Source: Lactobacillus johnsonii ATCC 33200
GTDB taxonomy: Bacteria; Bacillota; Bacilli; Lactobacillales; Lactobacillaceae
Reading direction: 5' to 3'
Assembly: GCF_000159355.1 (NCBI RefSeq)
Contig: NZ_GG670120.1
Location: 574,353 to 638,352 of the forward strand
DNA length: 64,000 bases
Shown: one piece after another, positions 6,490-27,047 of the stretch
Position numbering within the stretch: position 1 is the first letter of the stretch
Layout: each line of letters starts with the position of its first letter
Program-made: the position numbers and the translations under genes
Notes under the pieces: model-generated
What the model saw: the letters and a program-made list of their open reading frames with translations, nothing else
Databases searched by the model: none
What the model was told of the DNA's origin: nothing

Positions 6490-7649
6490 TTAGAAAAAAT
6501 AAGTGGTAAGGATTAGAGAAAAGGAGCTAATAAATCATGAAAGTATAAATTCGTATAATATATATTATGTAAAGTATAATATAAAAAGTATAGAATATAT
6601 CAAAAGTACCTTGTTCATATGAATTATGTTTTAGGCAGTTAAATCTTTATCAACATATCTAAAATAATTTTTCTGAGTTAATTAGATTCTTACCGACTAA
6701 AAAATATAAGTTAAGGATTTTTATTTTGAATCTTCATTGTAAGCTTAAATAAAAATTTTTATAGCTATGTCTATCTCTTATCTATAACTTTGTGATGCTG
6801 TGACGGCCATTCTATGGCTTTTAAAATAATTATTGGTTAGCAGTTAATCATTTGATTTAAATTTTCTGCTATATGTTCTATGCTAAATGTTTGCTATTGC
6901 TAGAGCTTATTTGTGGATTTAAGCTAGTTGTACAAGTAATAAGTATTCTCAGATAAAAGCTTAGAACTGAATATGATCATGGTAATACATAGAGTAATAA
7001 ATTAGGACAATATTACTCCTAGCTGGGGCAATAATACATGATTTTTCATTAAAATTACCTTTCATTAAAACAATAATTTTAATGAAAGGTGTAGATGTAT
7101 ATCCTATAAAATATAGCTTTTTTAATTCATTCAAATCGATCTGTTTTTTTCTTTTAAAGTTAACTTTAAAAATTTGTTTTGTTCCCAACAGCTACAAATT
7201 TATTTTAACCATATGTAATTCAGTCCAATATTTTAAATATTTTACTATATCATTTTTGAACTAATACTTTTATTCTCCTTTAATACCCTTTATTCAGCTT
7301 ATGTTTATCTCCTATTTAACCTTAAATTCTCATACATTATAGTTAATTTTATTATTCATGCTTTGAAACTACGCTTATTTACAGCAATAATTGCTTTTTA
7401 CTTAATGCTTTTTCTTAAATTACCTTTATTTATACTAAAAATCCGTTCTTTTTGGATTAATTTATTGTTCGAATCTTATTAGTTGTAAATTGATCTAAAT
7501 TCTATACGCTTTATAACTAATTACCAGCCTTTTCCATAGTATACTAGCTTGTCTCCCCTCTTTCCGGCTAGGGGACAGTAACAAAACTTTTTTTAGGTCA
7601 ATAAATAAGATATAATATTATACAAACCTACGTTCGAGGAGACTATAAT
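6490..7649. other. Gene-free AT-rich stretch upstream of xerS
   Basis: About 1.16 kb, very AT-rich, with no convincing coding region on either strand; the open frames here (60-75 codons) have no recognisable family and biased, low-complexity composition. At 6521-6526 AAGGAG is followed after 10 nt by ATG AAA GTA TAA (6537-6548), a start region with only three codons and probably a gene remnant. Direct and inverted copies of TTTCATTAAAA lie at 7044-7090. GTCTCCCCT ... AGGGGAC at 7551-7576 forms a small GC-rich dyad. TATAAT at 7611-7616 is a probable -10 element for xerS. Confidence 0.55.
7044..7090. repeat. Direct and inverted TTTCATTAAAA repeats
   Basis: TTTCATTAAAA occurs at 7044-7054 and 7060-7070. 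The second copy lies in a perfect 14-bp inverted repeat, ACCTTTCATTAAAA (7057-7070) with TTTTAATGAAAGGT (7077-7090), around a 6-nt centre. This is a dyad of the size used by dimeric DNA-binding proteins or tyrosine recombinases. No gene is adjacent; xerS starts 560 bp downstream. Confidence 0.6.
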
Positions 7650-8720
7650 TTGGAAACTAATAAATACTTAGAACTTATTAAGCAAGAATTGGCTAATATG
7701 CCAGATTTTGTAAAGGAATACAATCTAGGAACTTCTCATTCATTAACTACAACCTATCAATATTTAACTGAAATTCGACGTTTTTTCGACTGGCTAAGAC
7801 AAAATAATATTGCTTCGGTTTCTTCTAATAAAGAAATTGAAGTAACGACGTTGGAAAATCTACAAAGAAATGATGTTATGCTATACATTCATCATCTTAA
7901 ACATACTAAAAACCAACAAGGTCGCTTAAATTCGCCAACTACCATTAATCGTTCTATTAATGCTCTACGCTCCCTCTATAAGTTCTTAACGATTACTTCT
8001 GACAATAATCATGGTGAACCATATTTTGATCGTAATGTCATGCTAAAGATTAACTCATTAAATGATACTAAAACCTTAAATTATAGAGCTCATGTTTTAG
8101 AGTCACATATGTATATGGGAGATTTAAAATACCAATTTTTAGATTTTATTGAAAATGAATATGTACATAAATGTAATAAGCAGTCCCTACCTGCCTTTAA
8201 AAAGAATCACGAGCGAGATATGGCGATTATTGCATTAATTTTAGGAACTGGAATTAGAGTTTCTGAATGTGTTGGCGTAAATATGCGTAATATTAATTTA
8301 AAAGATGCTATGCTGGATGTTACACGCAAAGGTGGTCAAAAAGATAGTGTTCCTATTGCTGCATGGACGATTCCTTATTTAAAGAAATATAGGGAAATAC
8401 GTGCCGATCGGTATCATGCTGAAAAAGAAGATACTGCTTTCTTTTTAACTAGATGGCATGGAAAGACTAAAAGGATAACCACTAATGCAGTTGAGAAAAT
8501 GGTTAACAAGTATTCTGCAGCTTTTGGGAAACCTCTTACTCCCCATAAGTTACGCCATACGCTAGCTAGTGAACTTTATGAAGTAACTAAGGATCAAGTG
8601 CTAGTAGCACAGCAATTGGGTCAGAAAGGAACAACTGCTACTGATTTATATACTCATGTAGATCAAAAAAAACAAAAAGCGGCACTAAATAAAATAAATA
8701 GATATAAATCTTCTGATTAA
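7650..8720 (+). CDS. xerS: Tyrosine recombinase, XerS type
   Basis: A 356-residue site-specific recombinase, exactly the length of streptococcal XerS, the single recombinase that resolves chromosome dimers at dif-SL in place of XerC/XerD. An N-terminal core-binding SAM-like domain (about 20-130) is followed by the catalytic domain: Arg203 in GTGIRVSE, Lys227 in TRKGGQ, H299-x-x-R302 in PHKLRHTLASELY, and the nucleophile Tyr334 in TDLYTHVD. The usual second His of the L-G-H motif is Gln325 (LGQKGTT). The start is TTG 7650 with CGAGGAG upstream. I found no site I could confidently call dif in the upstream 1.1 kb, though that region is repeat-containing and XerS genes usually lie beside dif. A phage or element integrase is the alternative, but no excision or replication genes are present. 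Confidence 0.82.
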   Translation: METNKYLELIKQELANMPDFVKEYNLGTSHSLTTTYQYLTEIRRFFDWLRQNNIASVSSNKEIEVTTLENLQRNDVMLYIHHLKHTKNQQGRLNSPTTINRSINALRSLYKFLTITSDNNHGEPYFDRNVMLKINSLNDTKTLNYRAHVLESHMYMGDLKYQFLDFIENEYVHKCNKQSLPAFKKNHERDMAIIALILGTGIRVSECVGVNMRNINLKDAMLDVTRKGGQKDSVPIAAWTIPYLKKYREIRADRYHAEKEDTAFFLTRWHGKTKRITTNAVEKMVNKYSAAFGKPLTPHKLRHTLASELYEVTKDQVLVAQQLGQKGTTATDLYTHVDQKKQKAALNKINRYKSSD

Positions 8721-8790
8721 TTCAACTCTAATCTTATTATTTAGCCTATAATAAAAGTGTATACTTTATTTAAAAAGGAAAGAACACTTC

Positions 8791-9672
8791 ATGGAATTAA
8801 GAGTTTTAAAATATTTTCTTGCGGTTTGTGAAGCAAAAAATATATCAAAGGCAGCTGAAGCTCTTCATATTAGTCAACCATCGCTTTCACGCCAATTGAA
8901 AAATTTAGAGGCTGAACTTGGCGTAACTTTGTTTTATCGTGGACATCAGGAAATTACTCTTACTCAAGAAGGATATTATCTTCAGGAACATGCAGAAGAA
9001 ATAATTTCTTTGACCAATAAAACACAACAAAATCTAAAACGCTCTCAAATTATATCTGGTGAATTATACATCGGAGCAGGCGAAAGTATTGCAATTAAAC
9101 GTGTAATGGATATTATACATCGAATTTTACAGAACTATCCTCAAGTAAAAATTCACTTCTTTAATGGAAATTCATCCATGATTGAAAGCAAGCTTGAGCG
9201 TGGAATATTAGACTTTGGAATTACAATGGGCCAATATGATACTACTCAAAATTTTAATAGTCTGACCCTTCCTGAAATTAATGAATATGGTGTGATTGTA
9301 AGTAAAAATCATCCATTAGCTGATCATTCCTATGTTACTGCCGAAGATTTACAAAATTATCCTATCATTATGTCGAAACATACGGCTGATTCTAATAACT
9401 TTAGAGATTGGTATACTGAGCCACAAAAGTTAAATATCGTGGCTACATTTAACTTACCTGATAATTTGCAGTATCTCGTAGACAAGGGACCTTATTGCCT
9501 ATTGATATATAAAGATTTGCTTCCTTTAGATAAGAGTAACTTATGCTTTTTACCACTTGAGCCTAAAATTATTGACCATAATCGTTTGATTTGGAGTTCA
9601 AGAAATCAACTATCAAATGTTGCAAGTCTATTTCTTAAACTGATTCGAGATTCTATAAAAAGTAAAAATTAA
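8791..9672 (+). CDS. LysR-family transcriptional regulator
   Basis: A 293-residue LysR-type regulator of normal length. The N-terminal winged HTH (NISKAAEALHISQPSLSRQL, about residues 17-36) is followed by LEAELGVTLFYRG and a linker helix. The effector-binding domain (about 90-290) contains LYIGAGESIAIKRVMDIIHR and the LDFGITMGQYD hinge. AAGGAAAG precedes ATG 8791. The gene stands alone between xerS and a convergent membrane-protein gene, so no target can be read from context. Unlike the LysR gene at 1.1 kb, it is intact. Confidence 0.9.
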   Translation: MELRVLKYFLAVCEAKNISKAAEALHISQPSLSRQLKNLEAELGVTLFYRGHQEITLTQEGYYLQEHAEEIISLTNKTQQNLKRSQIISGELYIGAGESIAIKRVMDIIHRILQNYPQVKIHFFNGNSSMIESKLERGILDFGITMGQYDTTQNFNSLTLPEINEYGVIVSKNHPLADHSYVTAEDLQNYPIIMSKHTADSNNFRDWYTEPQKLNIVATFNLPDNLQYLVDKGPYCLLIYKDLLPLDKSNLCFLPLEPKIIDHNRLIWSSRNQLSNVASLFLKLIRDSIKSKN

Positions 9673-9683
9673 TTTATACATAA

Positions 9684-9728
9684 AAAAAACGATTTGAAGA
9701 TCTAAAAAAGATTTTCAAATCGTTTTTT
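9684..9728. terminator. Bidirectional terminator between lysR and the convergent gene
   Basis: AAAAAACGATTTGAA pairs exactly with TTCAAATCGTTTTTT, with A and T runs on both sides, so it can serve both converging genes. Confidence 0.85.
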
Positions 9729-9730
9729 AA

Positions 9731-10843
9731 TTAACGACTTTGCTGACTAGCAGCAGATTGTTGGTTGTTTTGTGCCTGTCCTTGATTATTGTGGTTCGTA
9801 TCTGAGCTGTTGTTACTATTATTGGTTTGTGATTGTTGACTAGATTCTTTATTGTCAGAAGATTGCGTTGATGTACTACTTTGACTTTGAGAATGTTGAC
9901 TTTCGTCATTATGTTCTTCTGATTTGCTACTTTGTGATGAACTGGATTGTTGGCTACTGCTTGAAGAACTTTCACTTGATTGACTAGACTGAGTATTTGA
10001 ATTTCCAGAACCAATATCAATATCAAAACTATCATCGGCTTTTGGATGGTATACTCTATGACTCTTCTTTGTTGCTGTCTTAGCTCTCAATGCTTTTGGA
10101 GTACTTACCTTAATTGCATTGATTTCTGTATATGTCCCCTCTTGAGAAATGTCGTATCCAGCATAAGCAAAACGCAAGTAGAATGAAAAGCTCGTCAAGA
10201 CTAAGTGGCCGCCCTTTTCTTTTAAGGTATATTCAACCTTTAACTTTTTAAGGGCTCCCTCATTGTCTAATCCAGATGCATTACCTTTAAGCTTTTTAAT
10301 TAGCTTACTGTGGGTCTTATTCCAGAACTTTAGACTATTACCACTGTAGCTAACGCGATAGATAGAACCAGATTTCTTAAGTTTCATATCGCCTTTAATT
10401 GCTTTACTTCCGCTTAAAATAATTGCTGGGTCGAATTGGCTAACTACTTTATTAGGAGTCATAGTAGAAGAAGCTTTCCACTTTGGACTACCAGTATTAT
10501 CCCACATTTTTTGATATACTTTGTCTTCATTTAGCCACATAGATGTCTTATCAACTTTAGCTTGTGCCTTAAGTGGATCATTTTGATATTCCCCAGTCCA
10601 AGTTCTTGTAGCTTGAATTCCGGGTGAATTCTTTACATTAAATTTATAGCTTTTGAAATCGGTATTGAGTGCTTCTGCAATAATTTCTTTGTCACTACTA
10701 TTACTTGTAGCAGAATTAACAGCGGTAGGACTACTATTTTTAATAGCACTTGTGTTCATAGCTAATATAACTTGAAAAACGATTACCAGTCCTAGACCAA
10801 TACCAGCGACTAGCCCTACTATTTTTAAAAACTTATTTTTCAT
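9731..10843 (-). CDS. Membrane-anchored extracytoplasmic protein with Ser/Gln/Asn-rich tail
   Basis: I do not recognise the family. The 370-residue protein has an N-terminal positively charged stretch and one hydrophobic segment (LVAGIGLGLVIVFQVILAM, about residues 11-29) without a lipobox cysteine, so it is probably a signal anchor. Residues 45-265 form a soluble, mainly beta-like domain with several Trp and Tyr (ATRTWTGEYQND, SMWLNEDKVYQKMWDN) and repeated short strand pairs, reminiscent of LolA/LppX-like lipoprotein domains; that comparison is inference. From about 275 to the end the sequence is almost only Ser, Gln, Asn and His, like the tail of PBP1A at 29-31 kb. There is no LPXTG motif. 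Such tails are commonly found on lactobacillus cell-wall proteins. Confidence 0.75.
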   Translation of the reverse strand: MKNKFLKIVGLVAGIGLGLVIVFQVILAMNTSAIKNSSPTAVNSATSNSSDKEIIAEALNTDFKSYKFNVKNSPGIQATRTWTGEYQNDPLKAQAKVDKTSMWLNEDKVYQKMWDNTGSPKWKASSTMTPNKVVSQFDPAIILSGSKAIKGDMKLKKSGSIYRVSYSGNSLKFWNKTHSKLIKKLKGNASGLDNEGALKKLKVEYTLKEKGGHLVLTSFSFYLRFAYAGYDISQEGTYTEINAIKVSTPKALRAKTATKKSHRVYHPKADDSFDIDIGSGNSNTQSSQSSESSSSSSQQSSSSQSSKSEEHNDESQHSQSQSSTSTQSSDNKESSQQSQTNNSNNSSDTNHNNQGQAQNNQQSAASQQSR

Positions 10844-10883
10844 TTAATCACTCTCGTTTAAAGTTCATATAATTTACTTTATT

Positions 10884-10920
10884 AAAAAAATAGGAAAGCA
10901 ACTTTAGCTCTCCTATTTTT
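10884..10920 (-). terminator. Terminator of degV
   Basis: On the minus strand AAAAATAGGA pairs with TCCTATTTTT, with a partly paired AGC/GCT extension and a TTTTTTT tail, directly after the degV stop. Confidence 0.8.
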
Positions 10921-10927
10921 GATATGA

Positions 10928-11815
10928 TTATTTTTTACTAAAGTCCATTTTATCTATGTCTGCCATCCAAGTAATACCAAGAGATTTTTCTCCTAAATAG
11001 GTAGCAATTACGGAACTAAAATTGAACATTTTAATGGTCATATTAGGGAAAGCAGCTTGAAAATCATTTTTAACCTTAGTAGCCTGCTCTAAATCATTAG
11101 AATTATAAACTGCTAATGACAATTTATCCTTAATAGGCGAATTATTAATTCGCTCAATAGTGATATTTTCAGCCTTCTTAACAGCTCTTTTCATGGAACG
11201 AACTTTATCAAAACTTACGATTTGATAATCATCCTTTTTAAATGTTAAAAGTGGCTTAATTTGAAGCATGGTACCAATAAAAGCACTCGCATTACTCAAA
11301 CGGCCGCCGCGCACTAAGTTATTTAAATCATCTACAACGAAAAGAACATCAATTGTATCTCTAATTTCGTCTAACTTAGCTAGAATTTCTTTAGGTTCCC
11401 AACCATTTTTAATCATTTTAGCAGCTGCTAGCACTAGATTTCCCATTGAACGAACAGTCATTGCTGGATCATAAGGATAAAGATTAAATTCAGGATGATT
11501 ATGAGCTAAAGTAACTAAACTGTTATAAAAGCCAGAAATACCAGATGTTAAGGGAATAGCAATAATAGCTTCATAACCTTCATTTTTCAATTTTTGGCAT
11601 AATTCAAGCATAGTACCCGGACTAGGCTGCGAAGTCTTAGGAAAAGGTGCTCCATCGCGTTCTAGCTCAAAAAGCTTCTCTGCAGTAATATCTACCCCAT
11701 CCATGTATTGATTATCTCCAATAATAACCGGAATAGGTACTACTGTAATATCATTGGCCTTGGCTTCTTCTGGGCTTATATCACTAGTACTATCTGTAAT
11801 GAGTGCTATCTTCAC
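10928..11815 (-). CDS. DegV-family fatty-acid-binding protein
   Basis: DegV proteins bind a single fatty acid; family members of the FakB type present it to the kinase FakA for phosphorylation. The 295-residue protein has the family layout: N-terminal ALITDSTSDIS (about residues 4-14), TSQPSPGTMLELC (about 81-93), the ITLSSG-equivalent PLTSGISGFYNS (about 108-119), DLNNLVRGGRLSNASAFIGT (about 163-182) and a basic beta region near the end. The start is GTG 11815 with AAGGTAGG upstream. A divergent, broken paralogue lies at 22.07-22.98 kb. Which lipid it carries cannot be read from sequence. Confidence 0.9.
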   Translation of the reverse strand: MKIALITDSTSDISPEEAKANDITVVPIPVIIGDNQYMDGVDITAEKLFELERDGAPFPKTSQPSPGTMLELCQKLKNEGYEAIIAIPLTSGISGFYNSLVTLAHNHPEFNLYPYDPAMTVRSMGNLVLAAAKMIKNGWEPKEILAKLDEIRDTIDVLFVVDDLNNLVRGGRLSNASAFIGTMLQIKPLLTFKKDDYQIVSFDKVRSMKRAVKKAENITIERINNSPIKDKLSLAVYNSNDLEQATKVKNDFQAAFPNMTIKMFNFSSVIATYLGEKSLGITWMADIDKMDFSKK

Positions 11816-12530: not shown

Positions 12531-14222
12531 ATGGCTTTTGATGGTTTATTTATTCATAGTCTTCTGCAAGATCTCTCCCCTACTCTGGTTGGAGGAAAAC
12601 TTACTAAAATATACCAACCATTTGAACAAGATTTAGTTTTAAATTTTAGGAAAGATCGAAAGAATCAGCGGTTGCTGATTTCTGCTAATGCTCAAAATCC
12701 ACGCTTTTATATTACAAATGACACAATTGCAAATCCTGACGTTGCTCCTACTTTTGTCATGGTTTTGCGGAAATATTTAGAAGGATCAGTTCTTCAAAAA
12801 ATCGAACAAATCGGTGTTGAGAGAATAATTAACTTTCATTTTTCTAATCGAAATGAATTAGGAGATGAAATGCAGCTTATTTTATCAGTAGAATTGATGG
12901 GCCGACACAGTAATGTGATTTTATATAATGCGGATGATAATAAAATTATTGATTTGCTTAAAAGAATCAATCCTGATGAAAACCGCGCTCGCTTACTACT
13001 TCCACATGCCCCTTATGAACTCCCTCCTCTTCTTCCAGGAATCAATGGCTTCGATTTTTCTGCTGACAGCTTCAATGACTTAAAGGAAAAGTATCCTGAA
13101 CCAGCAGATTTTGTAAGACAATTTAATGGTTTAGACGGAGACGATAAAAAAGAATTTACTGGTTACTTAGAAGACGATTTTTCATATAGTTCTTTACAGA
13201 CATTTTTTAATCAATTTAATAGACCAAAAGGATATGTATTACAAACCATTAAGCATAAGGATCGTGTATATACTTACCTTCCCTATCATCTTGAATTAAA
13301 TTTGATTTATTCTAATGACGATGTCAATAAAACATTAGACGAGTTTTATCGTGATCAGGCTAATCGTGAATGGGTAAAGCAAAAATCTAAAAGAATTGAA
13401 AATATTGTTAATAATGAGCTTAAAAAACTTAAAAAGAAGATTATTAAGCTACGTAAGCAACTAGATCAAGCCGAGAATTCTGAAGAATATCGAATTAAGG
13501 GTGAATTGCTTAATGCTTATCTTCATGAAGTAAAGGCTGGGATGACAAGTATTGATCTACCAAATTATTATGAAAATAATAAGCCCTTAAAAATAAAACT
13601 TGATCCCGCACTTTCACCTGCTAGAAATGCACAAAAATACTTTACTCGTTATCAAAAATTACGTAATTCAATTAAACATATTAATGAACAAATTAAATTA
13701 GCAAATGAGAATTTAGATTACTTTGATTCTATCCAAACTGCAATTGATAACGCTGATCCACAAGATATTGATGCAATTAGCGATGAATTAATTAATCAAG
13801 GCTATCTAAAAGAACAAAATCATAATCATCGCCGTAAGAAAAAGATTAGCGAAAAAAATTTGAATACTTTTAAACTAAGTGATGGTAAAAAAGTATTAGT
13901 TGGTAAAAATAATTATCAAAATGATTGGCTAACTTTAAAAAAGGCAGACAAACGTGATTACTGGTTCCATGTCAAAAATATGCCTGGCTCTCATGTCATT
14001 TTGCAGGACAATGATCCAAGTGATGAAGATATCAAAGAAGCAGCTGAAATTGCTGCCTATTTCTCTAAAGGAAAGAATTCTAGTCACGTCCCAGTTGATT
14101 ATGTGCAAGTTAAAAGAATTAAAAAACCTAATGGTGCTAAGCCTGGTTTTGTCATTTATACTGGTCAGAATTCAATCGAAGTTACTCCCAATGAAAAAGA
14201 TATTTTAGAAAAAAGAATATAG
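12531..14222 (+). CDS. rqcH: RqcH/FbpA (NFACT family) ribosome quality-control factor
   Basis: RqcH binds stalled 50S subunits and recruits tRNA-Ala to add C-terminal alanine tails that mark incomplete proteins for degradation; older annotations call it fibronectin-binding protein. The 563 residues follow the NFACT order: NFACT-N (1-130), a second part with LMGRHSNVIL (about 125-134), helix-hairpin-helix, a long coiled coil rich in Lys/Glu (about 280-420) and NFACT-R with DYWFHVKNMPGSHVIL (about 485-500). The position matching the B. subtilis D97-R98 pair reads E97-R98, a conservative change at a residue needed for tailing. AAAGGAGG precedes ATG 12531. It lies close to the lspA-rluD-car genes, as in Bacillus. 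Confidence 0.93.
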   Translation: MAFDGLFIHSLLQDLSPTLVGGKLTKIYQPFEQDLVLNFRKDRKNQRLLISANAQNPRFYITNDTIANPDVAPTFVMVLRKYLEGSVLQKIEQIGVERIINFHFSNRNELGDEMQLILSVELMGRHSNVILYNADDNKIIDLLKRINPDENRARLLLPHAPYELPPLLPGINGFDFSADSFNDLKEKYPEPADFVRQFNGLDGDDKKEFTGYLEDDFSYSSLQTFFNQFNRPKGYVLQTIKHKDRVYTYLPYHLELNLIYSNDDVNKTLDEFYRDQANREWVKQKSKRIENIVNNELKKLKKKIIKLRKQLDQAENSEEYRIKGELLNAYLHEVKAGMTSIDLPNYYENNKPLKIKLDPALSPARNAQKYFTRYQKLRNSIKHINEQIKLANENLDYFDSIQTAIDNADPQDIDAISDELINQGYLKEQNHNHRRKKKISEKNLNTFKLSDGKKVLVGKNNYQNDWLTLKKADKRDYWFHVKNMPGSHVILQDNDPSDEDIKEAAEIAAYFSKGKNSSHVPVDYVQVKRIKKPNGAKPGFVIYTGQNSIEVTPNEKDILEKRI

Positions 14223-14223
14223 A

Positions 14224-14258
14224 AAAAAGCGTTCATATCAAAATGAGCGCTTTTTATA
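14224..14258. terminator. Terminator between rqcH and the carB-like gene
   Basis: AAAAAGCGTTCAT pairs with ATGAGCGCTTTTT (one G-U) and is flanked by A and T runs, so it can serve both converging genes. Confidence 0.8.
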
Positions 14259-14294: not shown

Positions 14295-17200
14295 TTACAA
14301 AGGTTGAGTAGTCATTGCTAAAGTTTCAAGTACTATTAACACATCTTGCGCTGATTGTAAACTAGAAAAAACAGGAATATGTGTGCTTAAAGCTGCATCT
14401 TTAATCATAATTGCATCATGACTAGCAGAGTCGGATAAACTGGTTACATTGATTACTAGATTAATTCGGTGCTGCTTTATTTTTTCAAGTAAGCTATTAC
14501 TTCCCTCTTGAACTTTTTCAATAATTCCTGTTGTTATTCCCTCTTCAGCTAATACATTTGCAGTACCTTCAGTTGCTAACAGTTTAAAACCTAACTGATG
14601 GAAGCGGACAGCTATTTTAATTGCACTATGTTTTTCAGAATCTTTAACCGAAATAAAGACAGTACCATATGTTGAAATCATTAAATCACTGCCTTCATAT
14701 CCTTTAAACAATGCAGTTGGCAAATGCTTGGCTCGGCCCATCACACTACCAGAGGTCTTCATCTTAGAATCGAAGGTATTTTCACTACTATATGATAAAT
14801 AAGAAAAGACTGGCATTTTAACGTGAATCAAGTCGTTTGATGGCCAAATATCGCTTGGAAGATCTAATTCAGACAATGTACTTCCTAACAAAACTTTCAT
14901 TGTTATAGCTGTAATATCTTTTTTTAGTGCTTTAGTTAGAAAAGCTACATTGTGTCCAGAGTAACTTTTAATTTGTAATAAATAGATTTGATCATTAGCT
15001 AGTAAAAAGTGTAAGTTAACTGGTCCTCTTAAATTAAGTTTAGTGGCAATACTAATTGCACTATCACGTAATCTACGCTGATCATTAGTTGATAGATTTT
15101 GTGGACGATAGACAGCTATGGAGTCACTGGCATGTGAACCGGTTTGTTCAAAGTGTTCAATAATTCCGGGAATAGTAACATTTTTACCATCAGAAATAGC
15201 AGTCACTTCATACTTTTTGCCTTCAATAAACTTCGAAACATTCATATGCTCTAATGAATTTTCAGCAATATATCTTTGTAAAGCTGGTAAATCAAAGACA
15301 ACAGCAGATTTTTGCTTCTTACCGTTACTTGTACCACCAATTAAAGCTGGAAAGCCATTTCTTTTAACAAAAGCTAAAATGCTTTCTTCATTATCGCATT
15401 GAAGAGCTGGGACTGGATTAACGCCAGCCTGATATACTTCATCTGCATGATCTTCCCTTAGAATTTCCTTCAAATTAGGCTGACCTAAAATTGTTAGACC
15501 ATGTTCTAAGAGTGAACTGCGATACTCATTAATCTGTTTGCCAGAAAATTGCGTTACCACTTCTTTGATATTTTCTTTCCATGCAACTTCAAGAATATTT
15601 TCTAAAGTAATTGGTTCAAAGTAAATTCGATCGCATACATCATAAGCTGCACTCACACTTTCTGGATTATTACTAATAATCACCGGGCTAATTCCTTGCT
15701 CTTTTAAGGTCTTAGCAGCATGGTAGAGCATATAATCAAACTCACCAGTTAGAGATACTTGAAATGGTTTTAATCCTAAAAGAAGGCATTTTTTCGAATT
15801 AGATAGCGGTATTATTTCATCTTCAATTCCATAACTACTGTAAACAGCTTGAATATTAGGATGGATTAACCCAGCTGTTCCATCAATTTCAATATAGCTA
15901 GGCTTAATTGACCATTTTTTACATAAATCAGCAATTGATTTTTCATCTTGCTGCGTAATTTCAGCAATTAATCGATTAGAAAAACCATTTTTCTTTACTT
16001 TCAGCATTAAATCAGCCGTAAGTTCATCATTACGTAATTTCTTTAATAAAATCAAAATATGATTAAACTTCTGCAAAAATACTAAATGAATATGTAAAAG
16101 CTGGTGAAGAGTATGGTAATTAATTCCCTTTGCTATCGCGGCCAATAGTGTAATTAGGTGTATTTCATTAGGCTTTGCTAGATCTTGCAATAATTCTTTT
16201 TCGCTTTTTTTATATTCCTTTTTAAAGGTCTTAACATTATTAGAAAAACCAGTAGTTGACTGGAGAGCCTTTAAAAATGCACTTTCAAAGTTACGACCAA
16301 TTCCTAAAGCTTGGCCTCCGGAAGTGGTTTTATTATTAAGAGTGTAGTGATTATAACCAGCTTCTGTGAAAGACCAATAAGGTAATTTTACAAAGCAAGC
16401 ATCTTGAACAGGATCAACAGCGGCAGAAATTCCAGATTGTGGATCAGTGATTTCATTTAAATTATAGCCAAGTGCAATTTTGGCCGTTACATATCCAATA
16501 GAATATACGCCACTTCTATAAGAAAGCAAACTACTCTGAGTCAAACGTGGCTTAATACTTAATACTTTAAAATTAAAGTCTTCCCCACTTTGCTTAACAG
16601 CAAAATGAATACTTAAAGCTCCATGTAAATTAAGACAATTAGCAATCTTTCGACAGCAATTTCTTAAGCGTTGAATTTGATTATTATTTCTAGTTAAAAT
16701 CGGCGTTACTAATAAAGAATCTGAAGAGTTAATACCAACTGGTTCTAAACTACCAATATTTCCTACAAATACAAAATTTCCATTATTATCCCGAACAATA
16801 TCAAAAATTAATTCTTCCCAATTCGATAAATCTTCAGTTAAACGATAATCTTTCCAATTAAAATGATCATCGGCTTCTTCGTCTAAGAAGTATTGCTCTA
16901 ATTGAGTTAGATTTTCTAAAGAGATCATGCTATCGGGGCGATAATGCTGCTTTTTTGATAAAAGCAAAGGAAAATTAGCATGTTCAATTACCCGCCTTAA
17001 GTCCTCCTCTTTTTCTAATAGCCATTGATTGGCCACCGCAATCTTATTTGCTTTAAGAAAACTATAGAAATTATGAGGATCTGATAGACTCAATGCCAAG
17101 CTGTTAATAGTTAGTAACTCAATATTCATTTGAGTCAAGATGCCCGACTCTAATAATTCACTGGTGAGTTTTAAAGCTGGCTTACCCCCAAAAGCCGGAA

Positions 17201-17459
17201 TAATAGCATCCGGCTTCTCCATCCGAATAATTCGCTTCACAAAAGGCAACGTCATTGGTTCAAGATATACATTTACATTAGGATGCGGATCTGTTGTGAC
17301 TGTTGCAGGATTAGGATTAATCAATACAACTTGTACGTTACTTTCTTCAAAAGCCGTTAATGCTTGTTTAGCAAGAATATCAAGCTCTGATACTTCTCCA
17401 ACAATACTTGGCCCCGCTCCAATAACAAGAACTTTATTAATTTCATTATGTAAAGGCAT
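14295..17459 (-). CDS. Carbamoyl-phosphate synthase large-subunit homologue lacking catalytic residues
   Basis: A 1054-residue homologue of CarB, essentially full length and uninterrupted. The order is kept: N-terminal half (1-400), oligomerisation region (400-545), C-terminal half (546-925) and MGS-like domain (930-1054). Easily alignable parts include VLVIGAGPSIVGEVSELD, NPNPATVTTD, IIPAFGGKPALKL, VTIPGIIEHFEQTGSHASDS and TYGTVFISVKD. Active-site positions are lost in both halves. The ATP-loop region IVRPAYTLGGTGGG of CarB reads LLSKKQHYRPDSMI (166-179) and, in the second half, LIGGTSNGKKQKSA (706-719). The E-V-N-P-R metal site reads S-I-K-P-R (301-305) and Q-I-K-S-Y (829-833), and the Gln ligands read His285 and His817. 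ATG 17459 lies three bases after the carA-like stop with GATGGAG upstream. It is probably not a synthase; the role is unknown, and a regulatory or scaffold function is inference. Confidence 0.85.
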   Translation of the reverse strand: MPLHNEINKVLVIGAGPSIVGEVSELDILAKQALTAFEESNVQVVLINPNPATVTTDPHPNVNVYLEPMTLPFVKRIIRMEKPDAIIPAFGGKPALKLTSELLESGILTQMNIELLTINSLALSLSDPHNFYSFLKANKIAVANQWLLEKEEDLRRVIEHANFPLLLSKKQHYRPDSMISLENLTQLEQYFLDEEADDHFNWKDYRLTEDLSNWEELIFDIVRDNNGNFVFVGNIGSLEPVGINSSDSLLVTPILTRNNNQIQRLRNCCRKIANCLNLHGALSIHFAVKQSGEDFNFKVLSIKPRLTQSSLLSYRSGVYSIGYVTAKIALGYNLNEITDPQSGISAAVDPVQDACFVKLPYWSFTEAGYNHYTLNNKTTSGGQALGIGRNFESAFLKALQSTTGFSNNVKTFKKEYKKSEKELLQDLAKPNEIHLITLLAAIAKGINYHTLHQLLHIHLVFLQKFNHILILLKKLRNDELTADLMLKVKKNGFSNRLIAEITQQDEKSIADLCKKWSIKPSYIEIDGTAGLIHPNIQAVYSSYGIEDEIIPLSNSKKCLLLGLKPFQVSLTGEFDYMLYHAAKTLKEQGISPVIISNNPESVSAAYDVCDRIYFEPITLENILEVAWKENIKEVVTQFSGKQINEYRSSLLEHGLTILGQPNLKEILREDHADEVYQAGVNPVPALQCDNEESILAFVKRNGFPALIGGTSNGKKQKSAVVFDLPALQRYIAENSLEHMNVSKFIEGKKYEVTAISDGKNVTIPGIIEHFEQTGSHASDSIAVYRPQNLSTNDQRRLRDSAISIATKLNLRGPVNLHFLLANDQIYLLQIKSYSGHNVAFLTKALKKDITAITMKVLLGSTLSELDLPSDIWPSNDLIHVKMPVFSYLSYSSENTFDSKMKTSGSVMGRAKHLPTALFKGYEGSDLMISTYGTVFISVKDSEKHSAIKIAVRFHQLGFKLLATEGTANVLAEEGITTGIIEKVQEGSNSLLEKIKQHRINLVINVTSLSDSASHDAIMIKDAALSTHIPVFSSLQSAQDVLIVLETLAMTTQPL

Positions 17460-17462
17460 AGT

Positions 17463-18518
17463 CTACTCCATCATATTTAAAAACTGATCATAAATGCTGG
17501 CTGCATCAAAATTACCTGGTGAGCCTTCTGGATTAAAGGCAGTTGCTAAAACTTTATCTTCTTTGATATTGTAGCCTGCTAATAACTCCGACCTTAAATC
17601 AAAATATTTACGTGAAAGATTCAAAGATAAACTATCAGGTACTACTAATTGATCAATATTCATTGCAGTTTGCCAAATTCGATTATTAGTTTGTTCAATA
17701 ACTGGAAAATTGCTGCCATTATAGGCTGGAATTAAGTCCAAGAGTTCCAGGTTTAAATAATTACTAATTGCCAAAAAGCCTAAGCCAATTCCTAGAATAG
17801 GTAATTTTCCGTAAAACTTATCAAATACTGGTTTTAAAAATGGTGCAACTTCTTCTACTCTACTTGGTCCATTAGAAATAACAATTGCATCCGCTCGAAG
17901 ATTAATAATATCGTAAATTGATGCATTGTATGGTAAAACCACATTATTAATTTTCCGTAAAGAAAGGGAACGCAGTAATGAATGCTTTAAACCAAGATCA
18001 ATGACAGCTACAGTTTTTCCAATATTTGGGGCAGCATAAGGATGCGTTGTAGATATTTGTGCCGTTTTATTTTTTGGTAAAACTAGGGCCTTGATTTGAT
18101 CGAAAGCATGTGCATCATCTGTATCCATAATAGACGCTTTAATAACTCGCTTATTCTTCAATTTTTGAACTAGAGCGCGGATATCAACACCGTAGATTGC
18201 CGGAATTCTTTTCTCGTTTAGAAAATCATTTAAATCTTGAAAAGTTGGATTGGCAGAAATATGAAAAGCAATATCATTCGCAATTATGCCACGTACACTT
18301 GGATCAATCGATTCATAGTCGATTGCATTAATACCACTTCCACCAATCATTGGAGTAGTAAAAGCCAAAATTTTACCAAAATTAGCAGGGTCTGAAATTG
18401 CTTCCTGATATCCAAAATTGCTTGTTTGAATACCGAGCTCCCCTGTAGCAGTAATGGGAGCACCAAAACTGTGCCCCGAAAATGCAGTTCCGTCTTCAAG
18501 AATTAAATATCTTTTCAT
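17463..18518 (-). CDS. Carbamoyl-phosphate synthase small-subunit homologue without the glutaminase triad
   Basis: A 351-residue homologue of CarA with the normal two-domain length. The N-terminal subunit-interaction domain is recognisable (YLILEDGTAFSGHSFGAP, SNFGYQEAISDPANFGK, GVDIRALVQKLK). In the C-terminal class I amidotransferase domain the nucleophile elbow G-I-C-L-G-H reads G-I-G-L-G-F (243-248), so the catalytic Cys is Gly245. The catalytic His of H-P-E is Asn329 (FNPEGSPG); only Glu331 of the triad remains. The oxyanion-side N-G-P-G-D-P reads N-G-P-S-R-V. Glutamine hydrolysis is therefore not expected. ATG 18518 follows the rluD stop by three bases and the carB-like gene follows by three bases, so all three are translationally coupled. 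Both subunits have lost function together while staying open, which argues against simple decay. Confidence 0.85.
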   Translation of the reverse strand: MKRYLILEDGTAFSGHSFGAPITATGELGIQTSNFGYQEAISDPANFGKILAFTTPMIGGSGINAIDYESIDPSVRGIIANDIAFHISANPTFQDLNDFLNEKRIPAIYGVDIRALVQKLKNKRVIKASIMDTDDAHAFDQIKALVLPKNKTAQISTTHPYAAPNIGKTVAVIDLGLKHSLLRSLSLRKINNVVLPYNASIYDIINLRADAIVISNGPSRVEEVAPFLKPVFDKFYGKLPILGIGLGFLAISNYLNLELLDLIPAYNGSNFPVIEQTNNRIWQTAMNIDQLVVPDSLSLNLSRKYFDLRSELLAGYNIKEDKVLATAFNPEGSPGNFDAASIYDQFLNMME

Positions 18519-18521
18519 AAT

Positions 18522-19436
18522 CTATTGCTTCATTTCTTGTCGTAAATTCTCTAATTGTTTTTCAAAAATTGTTGGCAATGGTGCAGAAAATTCCAACCAT
18601 TCATTCGTAGAAGGTTGATAAAACCCCAAAGTCTTGGCATGCAAAAATTGTCCATGACCTGACAAGGTTTTCTTTGGGCCATATAAGGGATCGCCAGCTA
18701 ATGGATGACCGATGTACTTCATATGCACTCTAATTTGATGCGTTCTGCCTGTTTCCAGTACACATTTGACTAAACTATAATTTTTGAATTGCTCTAGTAC
18801 TGTAAAGTGTGTAACTGCAGCTTTTCCCTTTGGATTAACCGCCATTTGCTTTCTATTATTTGGATTTCTACCAATCGGAGCATTGATTACGCCATTTTTT
18901 ACTTCAAAGTTGCCATGAACAATTGCCAAATATTCTCTTTTATTTATTTTTTCTGCTAATTGCTTTTCTAAACTTTCACGTGCTCTATCATTTTTAGCTA
19001 TCATTAATAAACCAGAGGTATCTTTATCAATTCGATGCACAATCCCTGGACGAAACCCTTCAGGACTATCAGCTAAATCACGTGTATGATAAAGTAATCC
19101 ATTGACTAAGGTATGATCTGGATGGCCGGCTGAGGGATGAACAACTATTCCTTGAGGCTTATTAACCACAATCACATCTGAATCTTCATAAACAATATCA
19201 AGATGTAAGTTTTCAGCTTCTAATGATAATGGTTTAACAGGCGGAATAGTAACATCAATTACATCACCAGACTGTACTTTATAAGATACTTTTTCAGCTT
19301 TATTATTAACTAAAATATTTTTATCATTAACTAATTCCTTAATCTTAGTTCGACTTAAATCTGTAATTTTCTCAGCGATTACCTTATCTAAACGTCCTTT
19401 TTCTCCATCAATTACTAACTTATAATTTTTAGTCAT
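18522..19436 (-). CDS. rluD: Ribosomal large-subunit pseudouridine synthase, RluD family
   Basis: Converts uridines of 23S rRNA to pseudouridine. The 304-residue protein has an N-terminal S4 RNA-binding domain (RLDKVIAEKITDLSRTKIKELV, about residues 15-36) and the RluA/RluD catalytic domain. HRIDKDTSGLLMIAK (about 134-148) contains the catalytic Asp, and GRTHQIRVHMKYIGHPLAGDP (about 227-247) is the second family motif. lspA-rluD adjacency is conserved in Firmicutes, where the pyr operon often follows; here carA- and carB-like genes follow at once, without pyrR, pyrP, pyrB or pyrC. The exact uridine targets cannot be told; Bacillus YlyB is the likely counterpart. Confidence 0.92.
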   Translation of the reverse strand: MTKNYKLVIDGEKGRLDKVIAEKITDLSRTKIKELVNDKNILVNNKAEKVSYKVQSGDVIDVTIPPVKPLSLEAENLHLDIVYEDSDVIVVNKPQGIVVHPSAGHPDHTLVNGLLYHTRDLADSPEGFRPGIVHRIDKDTSGLLMIAKNDRARESLEKQLAEKINKREYLAIVHGNFEVKNGVINAPIGRNPNNRKQMAVNPKGKAAVTHFTVLEQFKNYSLVKCVLETGRTHQIRVHMKYIGHPLAGDPLYGPKKTLSGHGQFLHAKTLGFYQPSTNEWLEFSAPLPTIFEKQLENLRQEMKQ

Positions 19437-19450
19437 TTACTCTTCGTCCT

Positions 19451-19915
19451 TTAGTCTTTTTCGCTTATAAATATTAGATAGATAAAAACTAAGATAATTC
19501 CAACTGTAATTGCGCTGTCCGCAATATTAAAGATATTAAATTGAATAAAATCTAGTTGCAGCATATCAATTACATATTTTAGATGCAAACGATCAATAAA
19601 GTTACCAATGATTCCACCTAAAACTAAGGCTAATCCTGTATCAAAAAGGCCATTTTTATATTTGGGATTAAAAAGATAGTAAATTACAACTGCAATAGCG
19701 GCAATACTGATTAAATAAAATAAAATCATTTGTCCACTGAAGATATTCCAAGCTGCTCCATCGTTTTGTAAATATGTAAATGAAAGGACACCAGGAATAA
19801 TAGTCTTTTCATCACCAATTTTAAAATTAGTAACTATATAATTCTTTAATAATTGATCTGCAATAATTACTAATAAAGAAATTATTAGATATAAGGCTTG
19901 TTTAGCTTTACTCAT
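19451..19915 (-). CDS. lspA: Lipoprotein signal peptidase (signal peptidase II)
   Basis: A membrane aspartic protease that removes signal peptides from prolipoproteins. The 154-residue protein has four hydrophobic helices and the family motifs: LLVIIADQLLKNYIV (about 15-29), FTYLQNDGAAWNIFS (about 47-61), LVLGGIIGNFIDRL (about 97-110, first catalytic Asp) and FNIFNIADSAITVG (about 127-140, second catalytic Asp). Its ATG overlaps the fhs stop by one base (TAATG), so it is translationally coupled to fhs. rluD follows after 14 bases. Confidence 0.95.
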   Translation of the reverse strand: MSKAKQALYLIISLLVIIADQLLKNYIVTNFKIGDEKTIIPGVLSFTYLQNDGAAWNIFSGQMILFYLISIAAIAVVIYYLFNPKYKNGLFDTGLALVLGGIIGNFIDRLHLKYVIDMLQLDFIQFNIFNIADSAITVGIILVFIYLIFISEKD

Positions 19916-21594
19916 TAGAATAATCCTGAAATCTTTCCGTTATTATCTACATCAATATCTAAGGCAGCTGGATGTTTTGGCAATCCTGGCATATCTAAAA
20001 TAGATCCCGTAGCTACCACAATAAAACCTGCTCCATTTTTAAGAGCTAAATTCTTAACATGAAGTGTAAAATCTTCTGGAGCTCCTAATATACTCTTTTT
20101 ATCAGTAAAGCTATACTGTGTTTTAGCCATAATTACTGGTAAGTTTTCTTTACCCATTTTCTTAATTTCTGCTAATTGATCCTTAGCGTTATCAGAATAT
20201 TCAATATCCTTGGCATGATAAATATTATGAGCAATTTTACCAATTTTTTCTTCTACAGAGTCAATAGGTTCATATACTGAGGTAAAGTCACTAGCTTTAT
20301 TAGTTAACTCAACCACTTTTTCTGCGGCCTTAATTCCGCCCTTTGATCCTTCATCATGGTAAGAGACTACTTCACATTCAAAACCACCAGCTTTAACAAG
20401 TTCTTTCAATCTTGATAGTTCTTGTTCAGTATCACTAGCAAATTTATTTATTAGTACAATTACAGGTACACCATAATGAGCCATGTTTTCCATATGGCGC
20501 TTTAAGTTCTCAAAACCTTTTTCTAAAGCTGGAATATTTTCTTCATCTAAGTGATCAGTTGTCTCTTCTGCTTGATACTTCAATGCTCTTACGGTTGCAA
20601 CTACTACTACAGCGTCAGGACGTTTATCTAAATGGTTAGAAACAAAATCCATAAACTTTTGGCCACCGAGGTCTGCTCCAAAACCAGCTTCAGTCAAAAC
20701 ATAGTCGCTTAAGTGTAAAGCAGTATTAGTAGCAATTACTGAATTAGCACCATGAGCAATGTTAGCAAATGGACCGCCGTGAACAATTGCTGGGGTATGT
20801 TCAAGTGTTTGAACTAAGTTAGGCTTTAATGCGGTTGATAAAAGCGCAGCAATTGCTCCCTCAAACCCTAAGTCTTTAACATAAATAGGTTCATCTTTCA
20901 CAGAAAAGCCAACTAGCATATTTCCAATGCGCTTTTTCAAGTCATCAATATCAGTTGCTAAACATAAAATAGCCATTAATTCATTAGCTACAGTAATTGC
21001 AAAGCTAGCTTCATGTTCTATTCCATTAAAACGTGAACCTTGTCCGATAGTGATTTTTCTTAAAGTACGATCATTAACGTCAATTCCACGTTTTAATAAG
21101 ATACGATTAGGATCTAGTTCTAGACTATTATCTTGATAAATATAGTTATCAACTAAAGCAGCCAAAGTATCAATTGCACTAGTTAATGCGTGCATATCAC
21201 CAGTAAAGTGTAAATTAATATCTTCCATTGGGATGATCTGTGCATATCCACCACCAGTTGCACCACCTTTTAATCCAAAAACAGGACCCATTGAGGGTTC
21301 TCTTAATGCAATTAAAGTATTTTTGTGAAGTTGGTTGCTGATTGCATCCCCTAAACCAATGGTAATAGTAGATTTTCCTTCACCAGCCGGTGTAGGGCTA
21401 ATTGAAGTAACAAGAATTAACTTACCCAGTTCTTTACTTTGTTTAATTCTGTTAATTCCCTTCCAGCTAATCTTAGCCTTATCATTACCATAAAGTTCAA
21501 TTTCATCTGGTTGAAGATCAACTTTTTTTGCAATTTCTGTAATAGGTAATTCTTTAATTTCTTGTGCGATTTCAATATCTGACTTCAAATTCAT
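19915..21594 (-). CDS. fhs: Formate-tetrahydrofolate ligase
   Basis: Makes 10-formyl-tetrahydrofolate from formate, ATP and tetrahydrofolate, feeding purine synthesis and formyl-Met-tRNA. The 559-residue length is standard. The P-loop TPAGEGKST (about residues 69-77) is followed by [21 protein letters not shown] (split motif, about 99-119) and [10 protein letters not shown] (about 128-137). [14 protein letters not shown] (about 271-284) and [13 protein letters not shown] are further family marks. It overlaps the upstream small gene by ATGA and lspA by TAATG, so it is inside a tight operon. folD, the other one-carbon gene of the window, is at 54 kb. Confidence 0.96.
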
Positions 21595-22067: not shown

Positions 22068-22978
22068 ATGTAACTGACAGTTCATCTTATTTAACTAAAG
22101 AGCAATGCGAGAAATATGGAATTGATGTCTTACCAATTCCAATTATCTGGGATAATAAAGAATATCTGGATTTAATTGATATTGGTTTCCATGAATTCTA
22201 TGAAAAGCTAAGCACTTCCTCTACTCTTCCCACTACCTCTCAACCCTCAACTGGAACCGTAAAAAAATATATTGATAAATATATTGATGAAGGTTATACC
22301 GATCTAATTATCATTACTCTTTCAAGCGGTATTTCTAGCTTTTACAATAATGTTTTAAGTGTAGCTGATGAAGAAAGCAGAATTAATATTCATCCCTTTG
22401 ATTGTAAAATAACCTGTGCAGGAGAAGCTAATGCTGCAATATTAGCTGGTCGACTAGTCAAGGCCGGGGCTGACATTGATTTAATCATGCATGACTTAAA
22501 GGATTTAAGAAACACTACCGATGTTAGATTTATGGTAGACAATCTTAATCATTTAAAAAGAACAGGCCGCTTATCAAATGCCGCTAGTTTCGTAGGTTCT
22601 ATTTTAAAGATCAAGCCAATCTTATCTATGGACGTTCAAAATGAGGGTAAAATTTCAGCGATTGCCAAAGAGAGACATTATAAGCGTGCCTATAATCATA
22701 TTAAAAAAGACTTTGATAGTTTAACTTCTGATATGCCCTATCCAATTCAGTTGACAATTTTTCATGCTGATGATGAAGAAAGAAAAAATGAATGGGTTAG
22801 TGATTATAAAAGTAGTTTTCCTAAGGTCAAAATTTATCAAAGTATTATCGGACCAGTAGTTGGTGTTCATGTAGGGCAACATACTATGGCTATGATTTGG
22901 GGCAGAGATTTAGATTCTTATTTCGATAAAAATGGCAAGCCGATTAAGGATATTAAGTCAAAAGTTGTTGAAGATTGA
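22068..22978 (+). pseudogene. DegV-family gene with a destroyed translation start
   Basis: From 22070 one frame runs open to TGA 22976-22978 and encodes about 302 residues of a DegV protein: VTDSSSYLTKEQ, TTSQPSTGTVKKYI, TLSSGISSFYNN, DNLNHLKRTGRLSNAASFVG. The only well-placed start, ATG 22068 (16 nt after the start of GGAGGAAA), is in another frame and is followed at once by TAA (ATGTAACTGACAG). A normal DegV would read M-K-x-A-V-T-D-S, so a few codons seem to have been deleted between ATG and GTAACTGAC. The first in-frame ATG is 22487, which would give only a 163-residue fragment without the lipid-pocket N-domain. Promoter, RBS and terminator are intact, so the loss looks recent. Confidence 0.8.
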
Positions 22979-26667: not shown

Positions 26668-27047
26668 AACCTACAAATCTCTATAAGCCACGTTCTGTTC
26701 CAATAGGATTTGGTTAATTCCTATTTTCAGCGACCATCTATCTTCATTAAAAATGACCTCGTCTTTAGTTCATTTACTTAGACGAAAGCGCCCCTACCAA
26801 ATTTGGGTTGCCCGCTTGCAGGGTTTACCTCGTTCCACCAGCAAAGTTTCCTTCACTGCTTCGTCACTGTGGCACTTTTCAGGATAGTCACACATGTCAA
26901 AAATGATTTAGTGCTTTTTCCGCCGTAACTTGTAAAAACAAGTTCCCCAGCTTATTGGGCTGAGTACAAAAACTACAAGCATCTCAGCTTGTGCGTGCGT
27001 GGACTTTCCTCAGCTAGCATAAGCTAACCGCGATCGCTCGAAATTTG
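26668..27047 (-). ncRNA. rnpB: RNase P RNA, type B
   Basis: Catalytic RNA of RNase P, which matures tRNA 5' ends. On the minus strand the conserved core elements occur in order and at the right distances: GAGGAAAGTCCACGC near the 5' end (27002-27016), ACGGCGG, GGTGGAACGAGGTAAACCC, GCGGGCAACCC and, near the 3' end, ACAGAACGTGGCTTATAG (26681-26698). The length of about 380 nt and the gpsB-rnpB-ypsC position match Bacillus type B RNA. The 5' end is set from the extended -10 element at 27056-27061, and the 3' end lies just before the terminator; both are approximate by several bases. Confidence 0.95.

Follow-up and report, generated by a model that had tools for sequence, protein, structure and literature searches.

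Why should a bacterium maintain two full-length, uninterrupted genes for a carbamoyl-phosphate synthase (CPS) whose catalytic residues have gone? The question is raised by carA* and carB*, the genes for CPS-like small and large subunits in a 64,000-nucleotide stretch of the Lactobacillus johnsonii ATCC 33200 genome (contig NZ_GG670120.1, positions 574,353 to 638,352; hereafter the window, whose own numbering is used for its features). On the minus strand, carA* (17463-18518) encodes a small-subunit pseudoenzyme of 351 residues, comprising an N-domain and a dead class-I glutaminase domain, and carB* (14295-17459) encodes a large-subunit pseudoenzyme of 1054 residues with the full CPS architecture. 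Both frames run without a stop, as a preliminary description of this DNA had stated. The CPS fold and domain set were recovered by Pfam (PF00988, PF00117, PF25596, PF02786, PF02787 and PF02142 above cut-off), by Foldseek and by VIA, whose list was restricted to Foldseek's own matches. Our analysis shows that Lactobacillus keeps a degenerate copy of this two-subunit enzyme of pyrimidine synthesis, in some genomes next to the normal CPS and in others in its place; this copy is most likely a sensor or regulator, not an enzyme.

We compared 54 class I pairs (52 from Lactobacillus, together with those of genome G086 and Holzapfeliella) with 34 rows of live CPS, using the numbering of E. coli K-12 CarA and CarB (L193) and the roles in metal binding, ATP binding and phosphate loops that we take the CarB positions to have. 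In CarA*, Gly245 (codon 17784-17786, minus strand) replaces the glutaminase nucleophile Cys269 and Asn329 (codon 17532-17534, minus strand) replaces the catalytic His353; both replacements occur in 54/54 class I pairs, while Cys and His stand in 34/34 live rows. Passages of one report describe Cys269 and His353 as essential for glutamine hydrolysis (PMC6245113). The losses in CarB* extend to both halves. Within the former carboxyphosphate unit (residues 1-400; 16260-17459, minus strand), Q285 and E299 are retained in none of the 54 (Q285H in 52; E299 to Ser in 23 and Thr in 23), N301 survives in one (Lys in 40, Arg in 10), and R129, R169, G175 and G176 have all given way to varying residues. 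Within the former carbamoyl-phosphate unit (residues 556-930; 14670-15794, minus strand), R715, G721, G722 and Q829 are likewise retained in none (Q829H in 53) and R675 in 13, whereas H788 is kept and R715G, D753S, E761K, E841Q and N843K are found in all 54, three of these fixed changes (E761K, E841Q and N843K) being towards positive charge. Live rows keep the E. coli residue in 34/34 cases at C269, H353, Q285, E299, N301, Q829, E841 and N843. Class I pairs therefore lack the marks of an active CPS, namely the CarA Cys and His, the CarB metal and ATP ligands, and the glycine-rich phosphate loops with R169 and R715, and we infer that CarA* and CarB* make no carbamoyl phosphate. The preliminary description had already noted the two CarA replacements and the loss of the glycine-rich loops and metal sites in both CarB halves, all of which recur across class I. 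It had also pointed to parallel N-to-K and Q-to-H changes in the two halves; these are real, and both Q-to-H changes and the C-half N-to-K change are at or near fixation, but the N-half N-to-K change is not fixed (40/54).

Despite these losses the genes are under strong purifying selection. Ratios of nonsynonymous to synonymous substitution (dN/dS; NG86; six genomes of the closest group, 15 pairs) were 0.020-0.050 for carB* and 0.010-0.055 for carA*, comparable to those of the neighbours rluD (0.028-0.055), rqcH (0.025-0.066), fhs (0.034-0.198) and lspA (0-0.086), and to those of canonical carB (0.022-0.026) and carA (0.027-0.038; four genomes, 6 pairs); the ratios are rough because dS approaches or exceeds 1 in most comparisons, though 0.010-0.055 is also what the two pairs with the lowest saturation (dS 0.12-0.37) give. 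CarB* was found in 60 of the 61 Lactobacillus genomes sampled, the exception (G040) being 59% complete, and is full-length in 57 of the 61, with identity down to 48%; in G001 and G031 it is only partly seen, and in G020 it is interrupted by a TAA. Named carriers include L. taiwanensis, L. hominis, L. jensenii, L. delbrueckii, L. gallinarum, L. apis and L. acetotolerans. Among the 48 genomes with a completeness of 95% or more, 11 hold CarB* without any other CarB and 2 more have fragments only of the latter. The pair might still be a slowly decaying relic that has stayed open by chance, as the stop in G020, a break in the CarA* of G434 (an assembly 65% complete) and the broken carB' of Limosilactobacillus fermentum DR9 (see below) would allow. 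We reject this explanation as extremely improbable because of the near-universal presence of CarB*, the housekeeping-like dN/dS, and the genomes that hold CarB* without a canonical CarB. Purifying selection thus coincides with lost catalytic residues, the combination that defines a pseudoenzyme, and carA* and carB* very probably form a selected pair, kept side by side, that no longer works as a CPS. The checks proposed in the preliminary description, of orthologue dN/dS and of the changed residues, returned ratios far below 1 and changes fixed or nearly so at most positions, in agreement with the selection for a non-catalytic role that it had proposed.

Outside the genus, CarB* was found in Holzapfeliella floricola (45% identity), after which matches drop to 30%. 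A sample of 201 family genomes gave CarB* at 50% identity or more in at least nine (eight Lactobacillus and G086) among the matches listed; that sample left out G257, which is Holzapfeliella by sequence (its locus L249 equals L153). A Lactobacillus-type CarB* locus was also met in a record titled Faecalicatena absiana (L129, JAEDAG010000004.1), likely a mislabelled or contaminated assembly.

Does the organism have another CPS? A second, canonical carAB, for which the preliminary description had advised a search, is present about 62 kb from the carA*/carB* locus. Searching the window genome with CarB* returned one other CarB, 29% identical to it, in an operon (L005) whose genes, named partly on our assumption, are pyrD, pyrR, pyrB, pyrC, carA, carB and a second pyrR, and which carries a PyrR RNA leader. 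The second PyrR lies directly behind the canonical carB (L005 4178-4714, minus strand). An HAFDQ linker that CarA* has in common with live CarA from other genera is missing from canonical Lactobacillus CarA, an indication that the canonical enzyme is of another lineage than the CPS from which the pair came. We had considered HAFDQ as a newly gained binding motif of CarA*, an idea rejected because its occurrence in live CarA of other genera makes the linker ancestral. The coexistence of both copies in the window genome raises the prospect that CarA* or CarB* enters mixed oligomers with live CarA or CarB and tunes the canonical CPS. The N-domain of CarA, a part that makes subunit contacts, is as conserved in class I as in live CarA (mean identity 0.79 and 0.80, respectively). 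We consider such regulatory subunits very unlikely, and reject them as a general role, since CarB* occurs in the 11 genomes that have no canonical CarB and the two with fragments; moreover, pyrB above the family cut-off is absent from 13 of the 48 near-complete genomes.

We asked which parts of the pair are conserved. Among 16 genomes holding both pairs, mean identities for class I and live proteins were close in the CarA N-domain (given above) and the MGS domain (0.72 and 0.78), lower for class I in the glutaminase (GATase) domain (0.69 and 0.83), and far apart in pre-ATP 1 (0.70 and 0.93), ATP-grasp 1 (0.56 and 0.92), pre-ATP 2 (0.60 and 0.91), ATP-grasp 2 (0.65 and 0.86) and the oligomerisation domain (0.47 and 0.76); larger, unequal sets agree. 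The last of these (carB* residues 401-555; 15795-16259, minus strand) is the least conserved part of carB*. Ligand positions were tested against 5000 random position sets of the same domain. Conservation of the N-half ATP positions in class I does not exceed that of the random sets (1473 of the 5000 as low), that of the C-half positions exceeds it weakly (345) and that of the MGS positions strongly (1); the live rows gave 120, 12 and 1, respectively. The MGS, or allosteric, domain of carB* (residues 931-1054; 14298-14669, minus strand) conserves the E. coli positions S948, K954, T974, T977, K993 and N1015. T977 and K993, which are reported as residues of the UMP/IMP site, are present in 53/53 class I rows that hold the segment (the L085 row is cut there), so the residues of a nucleotide site are in place and binding is predicted from them; the conserved MGS ligand site of the preliminary description holds across the class. 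On this picture the first site is presumably idle, the second holds new, fixed residues, and the nucleotide site has apparently been kept.

The second site could have been rebuilt for a different reaction, its invariant Lys, Gln and His making the pair a new enzyme and not a pseudoenzyme. The five replacements found there in all 54 pairs are fixed and not drifting, H788 is kept, and the C-half has motifs of its own (KQKSAVV, GSHASDSIAV and AGHNVAF). We regard this as unlikely, given that metal ligands and phosphate-loop residues are gone from both ATP-grasp halves and that conservation of the C-half ligand positions, taken together, does not clearly exceed chance. We favour instead a non-catalytic, nucleotide-binding CPS complex acting as a sensor or regulator, and put the probability of this whole chain at roughly one half. 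In falling order of certainty after the pseudo-CPS itself, the two proteins would still form a CPS-like complex; the MGS domain would bind a nucleotide-type ligand, and the C-half pocket, with its gained fixed lysines, may bind a second anionic ligand without catalysis; and ligand binding would, as the least certain step, change the shape of the complex and report nucleotide status to a putative partner. Nucleotide sensing would be the simplest reading, although the step taken by itself falls a little short of even odds.

Where did the pair come from? In the window, rluD (18522-19436, minus strand) lies 3 bases upstream of carA*, preceded by lspA (19451-19915) and fhs, for formate-THF ligase (19915-21594), both also on the minus strand, and on the other side a convergent gene on the plus strand (12531-14222) bounds the conserved slot; we take this to be rqcH, and a fibronectin-binding-protein-like annotation exists for it in L. 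fermentum. The flanks were read at 53 class I loci (51 of the 60 CarB* genomes, G126 and G086), and the order lspA, rluD, carA*, carB* was the same in 53/53, with rqcH in 52 (the L050 contig ends). As the preliminary description had noted, none of pyrR, pyrP, pyrB and pyrC lies between rluD and carA* in the window, where a search for the PyrR-binding RNA leader (RF00515) that marks a PyrR-attenuated operon was also negative at the gathering score. In L091 (genus g25), L266 and L267, however, the same slot holds a live operon, lspA-rluD-pyrR-(pyrP)-pyrB-pyrC-carA-carB. Partial operons occur in two sister lineages: Holzapfeliella has rluD-pyrR-pyrP-carA*-carB* and a PyrR site, with a canonical CarB at another place in the genome, and G086 has rluD-pyrP-carA*-carB* and a PyrR site; such a site is found at the slot in these two, G070 and L091, and not in L089. 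Together the live and partial operons make the pair look like what is left of a pyr operon after loss of its other genes. We propose that carA*-carB* descends from the CPS of an ancestral Lactobacillaceae pyr operon in the rluD-rqcH slot, a step included in the estimate given above for the whole chain with its sensor role. The neighbours themselves say little about function. The preliminary description had read fhs, lspA and rluD as pointing to one-carbon sensing, but fhs-lspA-rluD also stands in the outgroups L090, L091 and L267, and lspA-rluD in L266, all with live operons; the gene order is ancestral, the one-carbon link is therefore unsupported, and this part of the earlier interpretation falls, whereas residue loss, selection and the MGS site stand.

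Other degenerate pairs occupy the same slot. An HAFDQ codon pattern matched 308/396 family genomes, chance matches included, and we fetched 40 loci, 38 at such matches and 2 at CarB* matches from the 201-genome search. These gave 22 truncated pairs from 8 genera, termed class II (L231-L242, L244-L248, L250, L251 and L254-L256), one Holzapfeliella pair, 7 live pairs and 10 loci without a recognised CPS gene; because loci were picked at matches, 22/40 is not a prevalence. Class II resembles class I in its place behind rluD, CarA Cys269Gly and low dN/dS (0.010-0.146 where dS was computable). It differs in a CarB of 828-900 residues that lacks the MGS domain and part of the second ATP-grasp, in pyrR just upstream in 22/22 pairs read, and in E299K (22/22, against Ser or Thr in class I). 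DVR01_09905 of Limosilactobacillus fermentum DR9, annotated as a carbamoyl phosphate synthase small subunit, is a class II example, apart from its lack of the upstream pyrR. In that strain, on a record called a plasmid (L271), the region 6998-11413 has a carA' with GIGLGHE, and its carB' is open only as pieces of 139 and 691 residues. Tetrahydrofolate riboswitches lie near two class II loci (L237 649-743 and L238 11119-11213).

The presence of pyrR beside all 22 class II pairs read suggests a further role, in which the pair derives from a PyrR-linked degenerate CPS that aids inorganic-carbon sensing; Holzapfeliella, with pyrR, pyrP and a PyrR site, would fit. An L. plantarum operon was reportedly named pyrR1BCAa1Ab1DFE in a 2006 abstract, implying a second pair, Aa2Ab2. 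The model here is L. plantarum PyrR2, which is lp_1782 and controls the pyr operon in response to inorganic carbon, according to parts of two reports (PMC7911632 and PMC3582564, respectively). We consider such a carbon dioxide/PyrR module distinctly unlikely for our pair. A scan of 10 class II loci gave no PyrR RNA site at the gathering score, and pyrR is missing from the slot in the window, G086 and L. fermentum DR9. A gene annotated as a carbonic anhydrase family protein adjoins carA' in DR9, which is weak evidence, as none was recognised at other class II loci, where no profile search for carbonic anhydrase was made.

An intermediate between live and dead pairs exists in G070, whose full-length pair (L094 6472-10754) has Cys269Gly, His353Asp, E299A and E841A and an N-half loop that is still glycine-rich; this genome also holds a live pair (L093), although a TGA was encountered within this second CarA stretch. 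Across 18 class I and 22 class II rows, Cys269Gly is the sole change that reaches at least 85% in each class, is shared by G070 and is absent from E. coli and from the 34 live rows. A codon pattern for Cys269Gly with Q273E matched 57/121 genomes and 21/36 genera, against 0 for a reversed control; reading confirmed 13 of the 57, and chance matches are likely among the others because in G106, G065, G130 and G111 the match lies away from the live CarA read. In the CarA tree each dead class forms a clade (100/100), while support for all dead rows together (87/78) falls short of firm; the CarB tree is a quick tree with very long stems. A possible, tentative history is that the two-subunit enzyme lost catalysis early in Lactobacillaceae, starting with the glutaminase Cys-to-Gly change, was retained in place as a ligand-binding complex, shortened in some genera, and was rebuilt in Lactobacillus as a nucleotide (or inorganic-carbon) sensor that outlived its parent pathway.

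Several observations weigh against the nucleotide-binding sensor. First, the 22 class II pairs have no MGS domain, so that sensing through MGS cannot be a role common to both classes. Second, the window locus has neither pyrR nor a PyrR RNA site, which disfavours a pyrimidine regulator. Third, conservation of the C-half ligand positions is weak, most positions in these tests other than T977 and K993 are ones we presume to bind ligands, and the MGS residues may owe their conservation to fold stability. Lastly, a TAA breaks one of the 53 class I loci (L085, in G020), and G020 is among the 11 genomes without a canonical CarB.

Compared with CarAB (E. coli CPS, PDB 1jdb and 1a9x; PyrAA/PyrAB of Bacilli), CarA* has lost the nucleophile and His of the glutaminase, and CarB* the two metal sites and the two phosphate loops; the pair lacks a PyrR site in the window and occurs in genomes without pyrB or canonical CPS. 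Human CPS1, an ammonia-dependent CPS, likewise retains a dead glutaminase-like region, but it keeps both phosphorylation steps, whereas the residues for either step are gone from CarB*. The open-access literature searched, which comprised titles, abstract openings and some passages, with most subscription papers outside its scope, yielded no description of the pair. A CPS lookalike without CPS residues is thus present in nearly every Lactobacillus genome sampled, beyond the view of a single-window description, as are the class II pairs and the canonical carAB. Wherever the canonical pair is missing, as in the 11 near-complete genomes, a metabolic model that credits a species with carbamoyl-phosphate or pyrimidine synthesis because of the degenerate pair would be in error. 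If it does act as a sensor, the pair would regulate nucleotide or CO2 physiology throughout a family of bacteria important in the gut, the vagina and food, and would show, in natural stages, how an enzyme complex turns into a pseudoenzyme.

Three further features of the window deserve mention. Between carB* and the convergent rqcH lies a terminator-like hairpin by consensus match (14224-14255), weak evidence since five such matches occur in the stretch against 3.8 expected. On the fhs side, a degV-like frame of 163 residues (22487-22978, plus strand) is probably decayed, relatives read there having 294-318 residues. An ordinary class B RNase P RNA is encoded at 26679-27045 on the minus strand.

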